This document shows, piece by piece, positions 1 through 5,299 of a DNA stretch of 44,580 bases; position 1 is the stretch's first letter, and each line of letters starts with the position of its first letter. The DNA is taken from assembly GCA_035063765.1 (NCBI GenBank), contig JAPSFT010000027.1, forward strand, positions 1 through 44,580, read 5' to 3'. Source of the DNA: Deltaproteobacteria bacterium (GTDB taxonomy: Bacteria > Myxococcota_A > UBA9160 > PR03). A model generated the notes under the pieces. That model did no database searches. It was not told the origin of the DNA and worked only from the letters and a program-made list of their open reading frames with translations. The position numbers and the translations under genes were made by a program.

Positions 1-383
1 ACCTGGCGAACGGCGAAGCGCTTGACGGTAGCAAGCACGGCTACACGCTGACCTTTGCCAAGGGCGATCTGCCGCCTGTGAACGCGTTCTGGTCGATCAC
101 CATGTATGAAGGCAAGACCCAGCTGCTGGTCGAGAACCCGATCAACCGCTACCTGGTCAACTCGCCGATGCTGCCGGGGATGAAGAAGAACGCGGACGGA
201 TCACTCACCCTCTACATCCAGAAGGATTCCCCGGGCAAGGACAAGGAGTCGAACTGGCTGCCCGCACCAGATGGTCCGATCTACATGGTGATGCGCCTGT
301 ATTGGCCAAGGACTGAGGCGCCGTCGATCCTGCCGGCCGGCAATGGCACGTGGCAGCCGCCGGCAATCGTGAAGGTCAAGTGA
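1..383 (+). CDS. C-terminal part of a DUF1254/DUF1214 protein (5' end outside window)
   Basis: The reading frame is open from base 3 to a TGA at 381-383, so only the last 126 or so residues are present. Seen: a Gly/Tyr-rich beta segment (YTLTFAKGDLPPVNAFWSIT) followed by MYEGKTQLLVENPINRY and a C-terminal DGPIYMVMRLYWP stretch. This pattern is typical of the DUF1214 domain that closes DUF1254/DUF1214 proteins, which are usually exported and of unknown function. The stop codon lies three bases before a complete attC site, the normal layout of an integron gene cassette, so this is probably a cassette gene. Base composition is lower in GC than the genes after 4526. The N-terminal DUF1254 half and any signal peptide cannot be judged. 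Confidence 0.8.
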   Translation, partial: LANGEALDGSKHGYTLTFAKGDLPPVNAFWSITMYEGKTQLLVENPINRYLVNSPMLPGMKKNADGSLTLYIQKDSPGKDKESNWLPAPDGPIYMVMRLYWPRTEAPSILPAGNGTWQPPAIVKVK

Positions 384-385
384 CC

Positions 386-445
386 AGCTAACAACCGGTT
401 GCAGCGGACGGCGCTCCGCGCCGCCGCTGAACCGGAGCGTTAGGG
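386..445 (+). other. Integron attC recombination site
   Basis: About 60 bp. The left core is AGCTAAC (386-392) and the right core GTTAGGG (439-445); CTAAC pairs with GTTAG. Inside, CCGGTT (395-400) pairs with AACCGG (430-435), and CAGCGG-A-CGGCG (402-413) pairs with CGCCGCCGCTG (419-429), leaving A408 unpaired as an extrahelical base around a short loop. Known of attC: such imperfect palindromes are recognised as folded single strands by integron integrases, with extrahelical bases setting strand choice. Size and layout resemble the short attC sites of aadA-type cassettes. It sits directly after one stop codon and 6 bp before the next gene. Confidence 0.88.
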
Positions 446-451
446 GGACAG

Positions 452-1153
452 ATGGACCCTCGTCACCTGCCCGTAGATAGTCGCCTGATTGGCCAGTGCG
501 TCTTCTGTGGAGCCGACCCCGGCACGAGCGAGCATGTCCCCTCCAGGATCCTGTTGGACGATCCTCTGCCTAGGGATGCCCCGACGGTGGAGGCCTGCGC
601 CGCCTGCAACGCTAGCTTCTCTTTGGACGAGGAGTACTTGGCATGCTTTCTGGAGTGTGTCTTCTGTGGCACCGCCGACGCGGCGGCCGTTTCGCGCGAT
701 AAGGTCTCCCGTGCGCTCTCGCACAACCCGCTGCTCGCTGCCCGGATCCGGCTCTCATTGCGAGAGGGTGACGATGGGTCGCTGGTCTGGTTGCCTGAAG
801 AAAGTCGGGTGCGCAGGATCGCTGTAAAGCTTGCTCGGGGTCATGCAGCGTACGAGTTGAGCCTACCGCAGATCGAGGAGCCGATCGAAGTATCAATCCT
901 TCCCTTTGTCGCAATGTCCGATTCAGTGCGTGCGAGCTTCGAGAACGCCGGTACCGGTGAATTTCGCGGGTGGCCGGAGATTGGAAGCCGCGCGTTCCAC
1001 CGGGCAGCCGGGGCTCATCCCTACGCGACACAACCCGGCCCGTGGATCACCGTGCAGCAAGGGCGGTATCGTTACTCAGTCGATCAGCCCGGTGGCGTAT
1101 GTGTTCGAATGGTCCTGAGCGAGTACCTTGCATGTACGGTCGAATGGGAGTGA
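452..1153 (+). CDS. HNH-like zinc-binding protein, putative integron cassette gene
   Basis: A 233-aa protein starting 6 bp after attC. Seen: C16-x2-C19, then E27-H28, then C49-x2-C52-N53, the spacing of an HNH/treble-clef fold of the type 'CxxCG...EHv...CxxCN'. This suggests a metal-dependent nuclease or DNA-binding protein, but the rest of the sequence is not recognised and no substrate can be named. The last few codons run into sequence that, in another frame, matches an IS3 transposase from about 1139. The natural C-terminus may therefore have been replaced by the insertion, and the gene's own attC is missing. A cassette origin is inferred from position. Confidence 0.6.
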   Translation: MDPRHLPVDSRLIGQCVFCGADPGTSEHVPSRILLDDPLPRDAPTVEACAACNASFSLDEEYLACFLECVFCGTADAAAVSRDKVSRALSHNPLLAARIRLSLREGDDGSLVWLPEESRVRRIAVKLARGHAAYELSLPQIEEPIEVSILPFVAMSDSVRASFENAGTGEFRGWPEIGSRAFHRAAGAHPYATQPGPWITVQQGRYRYSVDQPGGVCVRMVLSEYLACTVEWE

Positions 1154-1544
1154 GTACACCTCGATCGCGTTCGGCTTGCGCTGTCGCGAGGCGAACATCC
1201 GGCCGTCTATGGGGAGCGTCGGCGACGCCTACGACAACGCGATGGCGGAAAGCTTCTTCGCAACGCTCGAGTGTGAGCTGCTCGATCGCCGGCGCTTTGC
1301 CACCCAGACCGAGGCGCGCTTCGGTGTCCTCGACTGGATCGAGGCGTGGTACAATCCGCACCGACGACACTCGGCGCTCGGCTATCTCTCACCGATCGAG
1401 TTCGAACGAGCGCATCGTGACACAGGGAAGGGCGGGGGCTCCGCCCCCGCACCCCCGCAGAGGATTGAGGGCTGGATCTCAGAATCCGGAGGTCAGGAGA
1501 GTCCCGGTCTCGAAAGCGCGCAACTGTCCACCGAACCGGGGTAA
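1139..1544 (+). pseudogene. IS3-family transposase OrfB, 5'-truncated
   Basis: The frame covering 1139-1544 reads NGSEYTSIAFG, then RPSMGSVGDAYDNAMAESFF and WYNPHRRHSALGYLSP. These are the last third of the rve/DDE integrase domain of IS3-type OrfB, including the catalytic Glu in the DN-x2-AE motif. The two catalytic Asp residues and the whole N-terminus are absent, so it cannot be active. After the conserved end the frame carries about 35 low-complexity residues to a TAA at 1542-1544. The ATG at 1128 is inside the upstream gene and is not a real start. Confidence 0.85.
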
Positions 1545-1549: not shown

Positions 1550-1646
1550 GGTGCACGGCGGGCGGCAGGTGAGCCGCAAGCCGTTGGGCGGCGAGAAGAC
1601 GGAGCTCACCTTCGCTATTCTGGACCCGGTCCCGAGGAGCGACGCC

Positions 1647-1862
1647 TTGCACAACGAGTTCACCGCAATCATCGAACGTGATGGCGATTGGTTCATCGCG
1701 TATTGCCCCGAGATTCCTGGAGCGAACGGTCAGGGTCGCACGCGCGAGGAGGCTCGAGAGAGTCTTGGAGGCGCGATCTCGCTGATCCTGACTGACCGAA
1801 GAGAAGACGCCCTTCGCGGAATTCCGTCGGACGCCGAAAAAGACACGGTGACGATCGAGTGA
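1647..1862 (+). CDS. hicB: HicB-family antitoxin
   Basis: About 71 residues. Seen: FTAIIERDGDWFIAYCPEIP and GANGQGRTREEARESL, followed by a helix ending DRREDALRGIP. This is the partial RNase H-like fold of HicB antitoxins, which bind and neutralise the mRNA interferase HicA and often repress their own operon. I chose the TTG at 1647 because GAGGAG (1634-1639) lies 7 bp upstream and the HicB homology begins here; the frame extends to a GTG at 1551 but that stretch is IS3 end sequence and junction DNA. The stop overlaps the hicA start by 4 nt (GTGA). The order hicB-hicA is the reverse of the commonest arrangement but well known. TA pairs are frequent integron cassettes. Confidence 0.85.
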   Translation: MHNEFTAIIERDGDWFIAYCPEIPGANGQGRTREEARESLGGAISLILTDRREDALRGIPSDAEKDTVTIE

Positions 1863-2050
1863 ACCGGGGTGCCCTCCTTCGGCACCTTCGACGGCACGGC
1901 TGCTTCTTGAAGCGCGAGGGAGCCGCGCACTCGCTTTGGTGCAATCCAGCGACCGGAGTCGTCGAGGCCGTTCCGCGCCACACCGAGATCGCGAATCGAT
2001 TGGCGCGAAAGATCTGCCGAAGCCTCTCCGTCCCGGAAATCGGTGGCTAG
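1859..2050 (+). CDS. hicA: HicA-family mRNA interferase toxin
   Basis: A 63-aa protein starting at a GTG that overlaps the hicB stop. Seen: [20 protein letters not shown] with the likely catalytic His24, then NPATG and [20 protein letters not shown]. These are the hallmarks of the small double-stranded-RNA-binding-like HicA fold. HicA toxins cleave mRNA and tmRNA when released from HicB. Length and motifs are complete, so the pair is probably intact. Translational coupling through the 4-nt overlap implies that it is expressed only together with the antitoxin. Confidence 0.88.
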
Positions 2051-2061
2051 GTTCGCTCGCC

Positions 2062-2219
2062 GCCCAACACCTATGAGGCCCCCTCCCGTCAAAAGCGCTC
2101 TCCTCCGGCCGCGGTCCTGGGCCGCGGCATCCGGCTGTGATCTCGTCCTTTGCGCTCCAACTTCGCTTCACTCGTCGGTGCAGCATCCGCTGGACCCTGC
2201 ACCCAACACCTATCGAGGC
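2062..2219 (+). repeat. Two copies of an 18-19 bp element in a gene-free stretch
   Basis: GCCCAACACCTATGAGGC (2062-2079) recurs as ACCCAACACCTATCGAGGC (2201-2219), differing by one substitution and one inserted base. The 258 bases between hicA and the IS hold no gene I can support. Each copy begins with a perfect RYYYAAC heptamer, the left core of attC sites. No clear matching right core (GTTRRRY) or hairpin arm was found, so an attC origin is only a possibility. Confidence 0.45.
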
Positions 2220-2307: not shown

Positions 2308-2334
2308 TGAACCGCCCCGGGATTGCCGGAGGCT
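2308..2334 (+). repeat. Left terminal inverted repeat of the IS
   Basis: Starts TGAACCGCCCCGGG and continues through CCGGAGGCT. It pairs with 3589-3615 at 24 of 27 positions. Confidence 0.9.
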
Positions 2335-2357
2335 CCATTCGTTGGGAGGATGGAGTG

Positions 2358-3585
<1,228 letters not shown>

Positions 3586-3588
3586 CCA

Positions 3589-3615
3589 AGCCTCCGGAGA
3601 ACCCGGGGCGGTTCA
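3589..3615 (-). repeat. Right terminal inverted repeat of the IS
   Basis: Reverse complement starts TGAACCGCCCCGGG and continues CCGGAGGCT. The last base (3615) directly precedes the ATG of the methyltransferase. Confidence 0.9.
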
Positions 3616-4341
3616 ATGGAACTCTACGACTCGATCGGCCACCGGTATGGCGAACGGCGGAGGCAAGACCCTCGGATCGCCGAGCGAATCACCTGGGCCC
3701 TGGGGAGGTCCGAGAGCGTCGTGAACGTCGGCGCAGGCACGGGCTCCTACGAGCCGCGCGACCGCAAGCTCATCGCGGTAGAGCCATCCATGGTGATGAT
3801 TCGCCAGCGGTCCCCCGATGCGTCGCCAGCGATGCGTGCCTCAGCAACGAACCTCCCCTTCCGTGACGAGAGCTTCGACGCGTCGCTTGCGGTCCTCACA
3901 CTCCACCATTGGCCCGACCTCTCGCACGGCATCGACGAACTGCGCCGCGTTGCCCGGAGGACCGTCGTCATCCTCACTTTCGACACGTCCGTGGGTGGTT
4001 TCTGGCTCACGGACTACTTCCCCGAGATCTTGGAGGTGGATCGCCGTACGATGCCGTCGCTGTCGGCAGTCCAGCAGCATCTCGGCACGTCGAGGGTCTT
4101 CGATGTTCCCATTCCGCATGACTGCACGGACGGCTTTCTCGGAGCGTACTGGCGGCGTCCGCATGCATATCTCGACGCTGGCGTTCGATCGGCGATCTCG
4201 GTCTTCTCCCGGATCGAAAGCCTGGAACCCGGCCTCTCCAAGCTTCGAGCGGATCTCGAGTCGGGTGCTTGGCGCCGTCGATACGGCCACGCCCTCGATC
4301 GCTCTGAGCTCGATCTGGGGTATCGCCTGGTGGTTGCGTAG
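3616..4341 (+). CDS. Class I SAM-dependent methyltransferase
   Basis: A 241-aa protein. Seen: motif I VVNVGAGTGSYEP (35-47), an acidic VEPS (55-58), then SATNLPFRDESFDASLAVLTLHHW, the order of a Methyltransf_11 Rossmann domain. The C-terminal half (DCTDGFLGAYWRRP, GLSKLRADLESGAWRRR, LDLGYRLVVA) is conserved in a group of small stand-alone methyltransferases of unknown substrate. The ATG is the first base after the IS right end, so the native promoter and ribosome site are gone; any expression must come from the IS or be leaderless. The N-terminus MELYDSIGHRYGERRR still looks complete. Such genes are common integron cassettes, and the next feature ends in an attC half-site. Confidence 0.8.
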   Translation: MELYDSIGHRYGERRRQDPRIAERITWALGRSESVVNVGAGTGSYEPRDRKLIAVEPSMVMIRQRSPDASPAMRASATNLPFRDESFDASLAVLTLHHWPDLSHGIDELRRVARRTVVILTFDTSVGGFWLTDYFPEILEVDRRTMPSLSAVQQHLGTSRVFDVPIPHDCTDGFLGAYWRRPHAYLDAGVRSAISVFSRIESLEPGLSKLRADLESGAWRRRYGHALDRSELDLGYRLVVA

Positions 4342-4342
4342 T

Positions 4343-4495
4343 CGTACGCTTCCTGAGTTCCCCGAACTTGTCATTCGAGAAGTCATCGTCCGGCCGTATC
4401 GCTTCTTCTACCGCGTCAGCGGAGACTTCGTGTGGGTTGTGTCGGTCTGGCATGGGGCACAGGTACCAGGGAAGCCGAGGCCAGGAACACGCCGT
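4343..4495 (+). pseudogene. RelE/ParE-family toxin, C-terminal fragment
   Basis: Directly after the methyltransferase stop, the +2 frame reads EFPELVIREVIVRPYRFFYR, then VSGDFVWVVSVWHGAQ. This is the last half of a ParE/RelE toxin, whose hallmark is xVREVIxxPYRxxYRxxGDxVxxLxVxHGxR. There is no start codon and no N-terminal helical hairpin, and no antitoxin gene is next to it. The frame then runs into the attC half-site. It is a remnant of a toxin-antitoxin cassette. Confidence 0.75.
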
Positions 4496-4525
4496 CCAAC
4501 AAAGGCTGCACCTGACGCGGGCGGC
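4494..4525 (+). other. Left half of a truncated integron attC site
   Basis: GTCCAAC (4494-4500) is a perfect RYYYAAC left core. It is followed by AAAGGCTGCACCTGACGCGG and GCGGC, the usual left arm of environmental attC sites. The complementary right arm and GTTRRRY core are missing: at 4526 the sequence becomes the stop codon of the SDR gene. This marks the edge of the foreign cassette region. Confidence 0.65.
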
Positions 4526-5299
4526 TCAGTCGCCGCGCACCGCGGCCAGGAACGGCGGGCGCTCGCCGCCGCCGTCGAGGAGGAGGACGGCGCCGCTCAC
4601 GTAGCTGGCGAGCGGTGAGGCGAGGAACAGGCACGCGTCGGCGACGTCGCGCGGGGTTCCGAGGCGGCCGAGCGGCACGGTGGCGGCGACGCGCGTCTGG
4701 GCGGCGGCGTCGCCGTAGTGGAGCTCCACCTGCTCGGTGCGGATCATCCCGGCGGCGACGGCGTTGACGCGCACCTTCGGCGCCCACTCCATGGCGAGCG
4801 TGCGCGTGAGCGAGAGGAGCCCCGCCTTGGCGGCGCCGTAGGCCGCGGTGCCGGGCGAAGGCCGCAGCGCCGACACGCTCGCGACGTTGACGATCGCGCC
4901 CCCTTCGGGCTGCTCCTGCATCCGCGCGTTGGCCTGCTGCGCGAAGTGGAGGGGCGCCATCAGGTTGAGCGCCACGATCTTCTCCGAGAAGCGGGGCGAG
5001 GCGGTGGCGGCGGGCGCTGCGGGCGAGCCGCCGGCGTTGTTCACGAGCAGGTCGAGGCGCCCGAAGCGCTCGTGCGCGAAGGCGATCACGCGCGCGATCT
5101 GCTCCGTCTCGCGGACGTCGGCCGCGACGAAGGACGCACGCCGGCCACCCATCGCGGGCAGCGCCTCGGGCTGGCTGCGCCCGCAGACCACGACCTCGGC
5201 GCCGGCCTCGAGGAGGCGCTCGCTGATCCCGCGCCCGACGCCGCGCGCGCCGCCGGTCACGATGGCGACCCGGCCGGCGAGGTCGATCGCGATCGTCAC
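4526..5299 (-). CDS. Short-chain dehydrogenase/reductase, Rv3549c-like (steroid cluster)
   Basis: A 257-aa classical SDR. Seen: TGGARGVG cofactor loop near residues 15-22, NNAG, and the S-x12-YxxxK catalytic set (ASVSALRPSPGTAAYGAAKAG). The C-terminus VSGAVLLLDGGGERPPFLAA resembles my recollection of Rv3549c, an SDR next to the mycobacterial ring C/D genes. Expected role: NAD(P)-dependent oxidation or reduction of a hydroxyacyl/ketoacyl-CoA in the cytoplasm; the exact substrate is not known. It is last in a minus-strand run of six genes, 19 bp after the previous stop. The start is GTG (5299). Its stop lies on the junction with the attC remnant, so an original downstream neighbour may have been lost. 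Confidence 0.8.
   Translation of the reverse strand: MTIAIDLAGRVAIVTGGARGVGRGISERLLEAGAEVVVCGRSQPEALPAMGGRRASFVAADVRETEQIARVIAFAHERFGRLDLLVNNAGGSPAAPAATASPRFSEKIVALNLMAPLHFAQQANARMQEQPEGGAIVNVASVSALRPSPGTAAYGAAKAGLLSLTRTLAMEWAPKVRVNAVAAGMIRTEQVELHYGDAAAQTRVAATVPLGRLGTPRDVADACLFLASPLASYVSGAVLLLDGGGERPPFLAAVRGD

Follow-up and report, generated by a model that had tools for sequence, protein, structure and literature searches.

What is a complete integron attC site doing between two genes near the left end of a contig, and which integrase, if any, would act on the array that it belongs to? The window analysed here, 44,580 nucleotides long, is the whole of one contig (C27) in the 57-contig, 4.4 Mb assembly of a Deltaproteobacteria bacterium (GCA_035063765.1; genome G000). 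The first-pass annotation had placed a complete attC site at 386-445, with a chromosomal integron or cassette array, extant or former, just to the left.

A genuine attC site between two genes

The left end of the window holds three features:

3-383, forward strand: 3' end of a DUF1254/DUF1214 gene, the first cassette (126 aa; PF06742, E 1.3e-34)
386-445, forward strand: complete attC, with R'' at 386-392, a stem with extrahelical G401 and A408, and R' at 439-445
452-1153, forward strand: 233-aa open reading frame, the second cassette gene, starting 6 nt after R', its own attC missing

Reading the sequence gives the boxes R'' AGCTAAC (386-392) and R' GTTAGGG (439-445), with the crossover at G439^T440. 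Between them lie an outer pair of arms (CCGGTT 395-400 / AACCGG 430-435), a middle pair (CAGCGG 402-407 / CCGCTG 424-429) and an inner pair (CGGCGC 409-414 / GCGCCG 418-423), closed by a loop at 415-417. Every element of the site lies where it had been placed at first pass, when A408 was named and the second extrahelical base, G401, was passed over; the two are on the same arm, 6 bp apart. On the bottom strand this second base is C, where attC sites usually have G. Compared with the core consensus (R'' RYYYAAC and R' GTTRRRY, the cores able to pair), R'' deviates at position 2, the AAC/GTT ends are exact and five of the seven positions pair. The site is also a palindrome of the expected kind, with extrahelical bases, an unpaired spacer and a bottom strand that, folded as DNA, reaches -25.5 kcal/mol (z -5.4; no shuffle was equally stable). 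It begins 3 nt past the TGA at 381-383 and ends 6 nt ahead of the ATG at 452, as had been read at first pass.

Two detectors agree on the site. The first-pass annotation had proposed a covariance-model search as a check, and we ran it with a model, R1, built only from the eight attC sites of contig C5 of the same genome, in whose training set the 24 arm pairs are paired in 96% of cells, with both-side changes at 8 pairs; sliding the alignment by one to three columns cuts pairing to 22-41%. R1 matched 386-445 blind with 40.4 bits (E 9.3e-8, 72 kb searched), so that the site is recognised as attC by a covariance model, and in the whole 4.4 Mb genome it takes ninth-best place (E 5.7e-6), behind the eight training sites. 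The second, independent detector, a stem-rule script, returned exactly one match in the 44.6 kb window, this same site, and none that combined all 16 stem pairs with an R-box pairing of 5 or more in 100 dinucleotide-shuffled windows; weaker partial matches arose there at 0.43 per shuffle, and one of them equals the real site's sum of 21 for stem plus R. A strict DNA pattern, SCTAAC N30-60 AGCGTTAG, likewise picks out 386-445 alone, and misses the sites of C5 because these are longer. No attC model was matched in an Rfam scan of the window, the sole match being ALIL.

In addition, a solitary resident-type attC-like hairpin scoring 34.8 bits is present on another contig of the genome (C32, 17350-17401; L128 1501-1552), 3' of a gene and distant from any array. 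It is either a remnant or a look-alike, and was discarded as an attC since its R boxes are absent.

That hairpin illustrates how G+C-rich hairpins, which are common, can score well without R boxes, and the site at 386-445 could in principle be another chance hairpin or a terminator. Its complete R boxes, both extrahelical bases and intergenic position, together with an attI upstream and half attC sites downstream (see below), make this explanation negligible, and the context refutes an isolated chance structure. The stretch 386-445 is thus confirmed as a genuine attC.

The integron resident on another contig

The further attC sites and the intI that the first-pass annotation had advised looking for both exist in this genome. 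Among its 12 tyrosine recombinases there is one complete integron integrase, encoded on C5 (286841-287782), whose TIGR02249 score of 435 bits exceeds the cut-off of 265 and which aligns over residues 16-328 with the Vibrio cholerae integron integrase (2A3V), an alignment that includes the R, HxxR and Y motifs as well as the patch. The sister genome has its intI in a syntenic locus. Lying 3' of intI and co-directional with it are an attI, eight complete attC sites of 115-160 nt and, at the contig end, a left half attC. In the cassettes between attC sites, R'' is the exact reverse complement of the cassette's own opening core in 7 of 7 cases (by script), and reading extends the rule from attI to the first attC, where the attI core GTTAGCC is the reverse complement of R'', and from the eighth attC to the half site at L018 13278. 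This match is as left by cassettes inserted from circles. With an intI that has the patch domain, an attI beside it and cassettes joined at G^TT, C5 carries an integron, whose cassettes encode an Rce1-like protease, a 2'-5' RNA ligase-like protein, an Unstab_antitox/ParE pair, a PIN-domain protein and unknowns.

Throughout this locus (L018 4799-13300), intI is co-directional with the cassettes, a layout also seen in L070, L040, L039, L057 and others. An intI that reads toward attI, in the direction of the cassettes, recalls the Treponema-type integron (PMC3607928), whereas the host here is of a Myxococcota-like order and the layout is common to several relatives.

A short array disrupted by insertion sequences

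Beyond the second cassette gene, the window continues as follows:

1155-1544, forward strand: IS3-type transposase remnant (Pfam domain matches rve_3 and rve_2)
1551-1589, forward strand: right half of a resident-type attC, R' GTTGGGC at 1583-1589 (pattern and R1)
1647-1862, forward strand: presumed HicB-like antitoxin reading frame (start codon uncertain, frame open from 1551)
1859-2050, forward strand: HicA-like toxin reading frame, 63 aa (PF07927, E 6e-5, under the gathering score)
2062-2068, forward strand: GCCCAAC, a lone R'' (sequence reading)
2308-3615, forward strand: complete-looking IS3-family element inserted in the array (inverted ends by reading)
3616-4341, forward strand: methyltransferase gene (PF08241, E 3e-12)
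4494-4525, forward strand: left half of a resident-type attC, R'' GTCCAAC at 4494-4500, the distal end of the array (pattern)
4526-5299, reverse strand: SDR gene, the right chromosomal flank (80% identity to the gene adjoining LLM in genome G001)

The protein encoded at 452-1153 has full-length homologues at 37-40%, on plasmids, and no family in Pfam or NCBIfam; the HNH-like label given to it at first pass had its sole basis in a C-x2-C..C-x2-C pattern, which is indeed present. The end of this cassette has been replaced by the IS3 remnant at 1155-1544, which cut off its attC. Within the half site that follows, GGCAGGTGAGCCGCAAGCCGTTGGGC at 1564-1589 is a single match where none is expected (100 shuffles, with a pattern written post hoc), and the half site scores 14 bits with R1. 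The next reading frame, which we take to be HicB-like and which has no Pfam or NCBIfam match, directly overlaps the HicA-like one. Just beyond the pair, GCCCAAC (2062-2068) is the exact reverse complement of the core GTTGGGC (1583-1589); read by the rule that relates core and R'' in the C5 array, it is probably the R'' of the lost attC of a HicBA cassette.

The complete-looking IS3 element contains the ALIL match, a programmed-frameshift pseudoknot (RF01497, 2636-2752, 105.6 bits), and on the right it borders directly on the methyltransferase start codon. The methyltransferase gene is likely a cassette gene. At the distal half site, which touches the SDR gene, CAACAAAGGCTGCACCTGACG (4494-4525) is the only match in the window, with none expected, for a pattern likewise written post hoc; across the 4.4 Mb genome its left-arm pattern has just two other occurrences, both in the C5 array. 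The array in the window comprises one complete and two half attC sites with no neighbouring intI: a complete IntI match is absent from C27 and from the adjoining 9 kb of C13, the contig that carries the other side of the locus. Most of the array lies inside the window, up to 4525, and its half sites had been missed at first pass.

A second attI copy at the head of the array

In the sister genome G001, genes for MaoC, an LLM oxidoreductase, SDR and ACAD follow one another with nothing integron-like between LLM and SDR. In the genome studied here, MaoC and LLM stand at the left end of contig C13, and SDR and ACAD in the window from 4526, a synteny indicating that C13 and C27 flank one insertion between LLM and SDR. 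Outward from LLM on C13 come 89 bp without similarity to intI or its flanks, and then a copy of the attI region of C5, 92% identical over 209 bp. The homology begins 31 bp past the position of the intI stop and runs as far as the G^TT crossover in the core. The genome has exactly two such copies, remaining matches being 40 bp or less. After the C13 copy comes G^TTAGGTGACC, and then the first 54 codons of a DUF1254/1214 gene:

C13:163 to 1, reverse strand: 5' end of the DUF1254/1214 gene, 54 aa, at the left end of C13

Against a 476-aa Rhizobium homologue, the fragment on C13 aligns at residues 4-57 and the one in the window at 353-473. As complementary ends of one homologue, they indicate that C13 and C27 are joined through a DUF1254/1214 cassette of which some 0.9 kb is missing; this join rests on synteny and the split gene, not on a read or contig.

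These observations show that an intI-less second attI copy sits between LLM and SDR, that the DUF1254/1214 cassette follows it at the exact G^TT and ends in the attC at 386-445, and that behind it, as far as 4525, stand older cassettes broken up by IS elements and retaining half attC sites of the resident type. The DUF1214 gene is therefore a cassette, as first proposed. The notion of an integron or array just to the left fares less evenly: a chromosomal integron does exist in the genome, with its intI elsewhere, on C5, and to the left of the window the array extends for no more than about 1.4 kb, made up of the remaining DUF1254/1214 cassette and the attI copy, before a conserved chromosomal gene.

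Since the C5 array runs off the end of its contig at a left half attC, in the same direction, and resident-type half sites occur in the window too, C27 might have been the distal end of the C5 integron, one long array split in assembly. We consider this very improbable: the 5' end of the first gene of the window is found on C13, beside the attI copy and LLM; LLM and SDR adjoin in G001; and a join of C5 to C27 would require a second DUF1254/1214 gene. A direct continuation of C5 into C27 was accordingly rejected once the C13 sequence had been read.

Conservation between the two attI copies is uneven. In the 16 columns beside the core, 13 are conserved, with three mismatches and a 1-nt insertion, and because this part is poorly conserved the C13 copy may be a poor substrate for IntI. 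A 50-bp stretch (L018 5866-5915), by comparison, is 100% conserved while both ends drift; candidate roles for it are those of a cassette promoter and of an accessory IntI site, though a promoter scan of the attI region returned no sigma-70-like site. The attI of G001 is far more diverged from that of C5 than is the C13 copy, so the duplication probably postdates the divergence of the two species.

A foreign-type cassette in first position

At 60 nt, the attC at 386-445 is far shorter than the resident sites. Its best match among 218 attC matches listed by script, some from overlapping loci and leaving out two IMG/VR contigs retrieved by the site's own left arm, is an attC of Rhodanobacter lindaniclasticus (L094 811-870), also 60 nt long and identical at 55 of 61 positions without gaps (90%). 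Unlike the site studied here, it belongs to a gammaproteobacterium and lies on the same 3.3 kb contig as an intI. The C-terminus of the DUF1214 protein is 82% identical to Rhizobium plasmid proteins; comparison of the attC itself with plasmid DNA gave no convincing similarity. The short attC, its likeness to that of Rhodanobacter and the likeness of the protein to plasmid proteins of Rhizobium would fit a foreign cassette captured at some point at the head of the array. The two IMG/VR contigs, filed as viral, carry short-type attC sites like the one at 386-445 (L202 6136-6199 and L201 18-81).

Satellite arrays in relatives

We searched relatives from the same order. An IntI above the curated cut-off occurs in 31 of 61 genomes and attC sites found by R1 in 47 of 61, and where a locus has both, the attC sites are mostly downstream of intI and co-directional with it. 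Four of the ten intI-less arrays with enough upstream sequence are headed by a copy of their own genome's attI:

G000 C13/C27, G028 C31 and G049 C24: similarity ends at G^TT
G022 C23: 180-bp similarity stops shortly before the core

In G000, G028 and G049 the homology starts past the intI stop. When seven attI regions were compared with nine satellites, the four positives reached own-genome z values of 84, 67, 9 and 8, and all other pairs stayed at or below 3.4, except for the sister pair G001/G000. No attI copy was found at the other six satellites (G001 C60 and C75, G028 C32b, G029 C18, G034 C39 and G044 C68, the last of which offered only 193 bp for comparison). A tblastn search with the IntI of G000 at eleven satellite loci gave no match at E 1.

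In the main array of G028 (C32; L152 232-3286), several near-copies of one cassette, 81-89% identical, stand in tandem, and the same cassette is first in line at the attI copy on C31 (L155). Tandem cassette repeats are reported to be rare in mobile integrons (PMC12901181).

Decayed relic or array used in trans

In integrons, IntI binds an attC as a folded bottom strand and catalyses its recombination with double-stranded attI at G^TT, and the new cassette takes first place. We propose that 386-445 is the attC of the first cassette in an attI-headed satellite array used in trans, and put the probability of this whole explanation at roughly 0.78. Any use of the C13 attI copy would have to be in trans because C5 holds the only known intact integron integrase. 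The C5 IntI would thus act on the satellite copy: the bottom strand of an incoming attC would fold, IntI would recombine it with the double-stranded attI, and newcomers would enter first, an order of entry that fits a foreign-type attC in front and resident-type remnants behind. The attI copy itself may have arisen in the lineage of this species through duplication of the attI region, either alone or with an intI later lost. The partly decayed array and the poorly conserved core side of attI count against present use.

The same anatomy would be expected of a degraded second integron, a whole platform that was duplicated or acquired and then lost its intI, leaving a relic without present function; the difference between the two lies in use in trans. 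CALINs, clusters of at least two attC sites that lack a neighbouring integron integrase, roughly equal complete integrons in number across surveyed genomes and are usually described as just such degraded integrons (PMC9024848), broken intI genes occur on separate contigs in the relatives G008, G041, G043 and G017, and the window array does hold IS elements and half attC sites. We give this alternative a little less than an even chance. What speaks against it is that the 89 bp between LLM and the attI copy contain no trace of intI, their score lying within that of shuffles, that none of the eleven satellite loci has a tblastn match to IntI, that homology begins only past the intI stop in three genomes, and that the leading attC, being of foreign type, points to a capture that followed the loss of intI or took place in spite of it.

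The satellite array resembles CALINs of Xanthomonas and Shewanella, which lie away from the intI locus and can, according to the reports on them, be mobilised in trans (PMC12444791, PMC9229058), in that its attC cassettes stand apart from intI in a genome with an integron elsewhere. It differs in that a copy of the resident attI region stands at its head and ends at the crossover, and a literature search, mostly outside subscription papers and preprints, found no report of attI-headed CALINs. Fragments of attI that form parts of cassettes and are recombined by IntI1 are known from mobile integrons (PMC12901181). Such Delta-attI-type cassettes share with the present case attI-derived sites away from the integrase's own attI; however, theirs are fragments that follow a gene within an array of class 1 or 2, whereas here some 210 bp of attI sequence stand at the front of an array elsewhere on the chromosome.

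Copies of this kind would be missed because present tools ignore attI outside class 1 integrons: IntegronFinder 2.0 performs no attI search by default and knows only the class 1 attI (PMC9024848). The foreign-type attC in first position suggests that a cassette from gammaproteobacteria may have been captured at such a site. The attI-headed CALINs in four genomes offer a testable alternative to decay, in which attI travels and one integrase may feed several places. It is a tentative and somewhat doubtful idea that in this Myxococcota-like order one integrase serves several arrays in trans, through attI regions duplicated into other chromosomal sites where they act as landing pads; if true, some CALINs would be working outposts of an integron and not decayed integrons.
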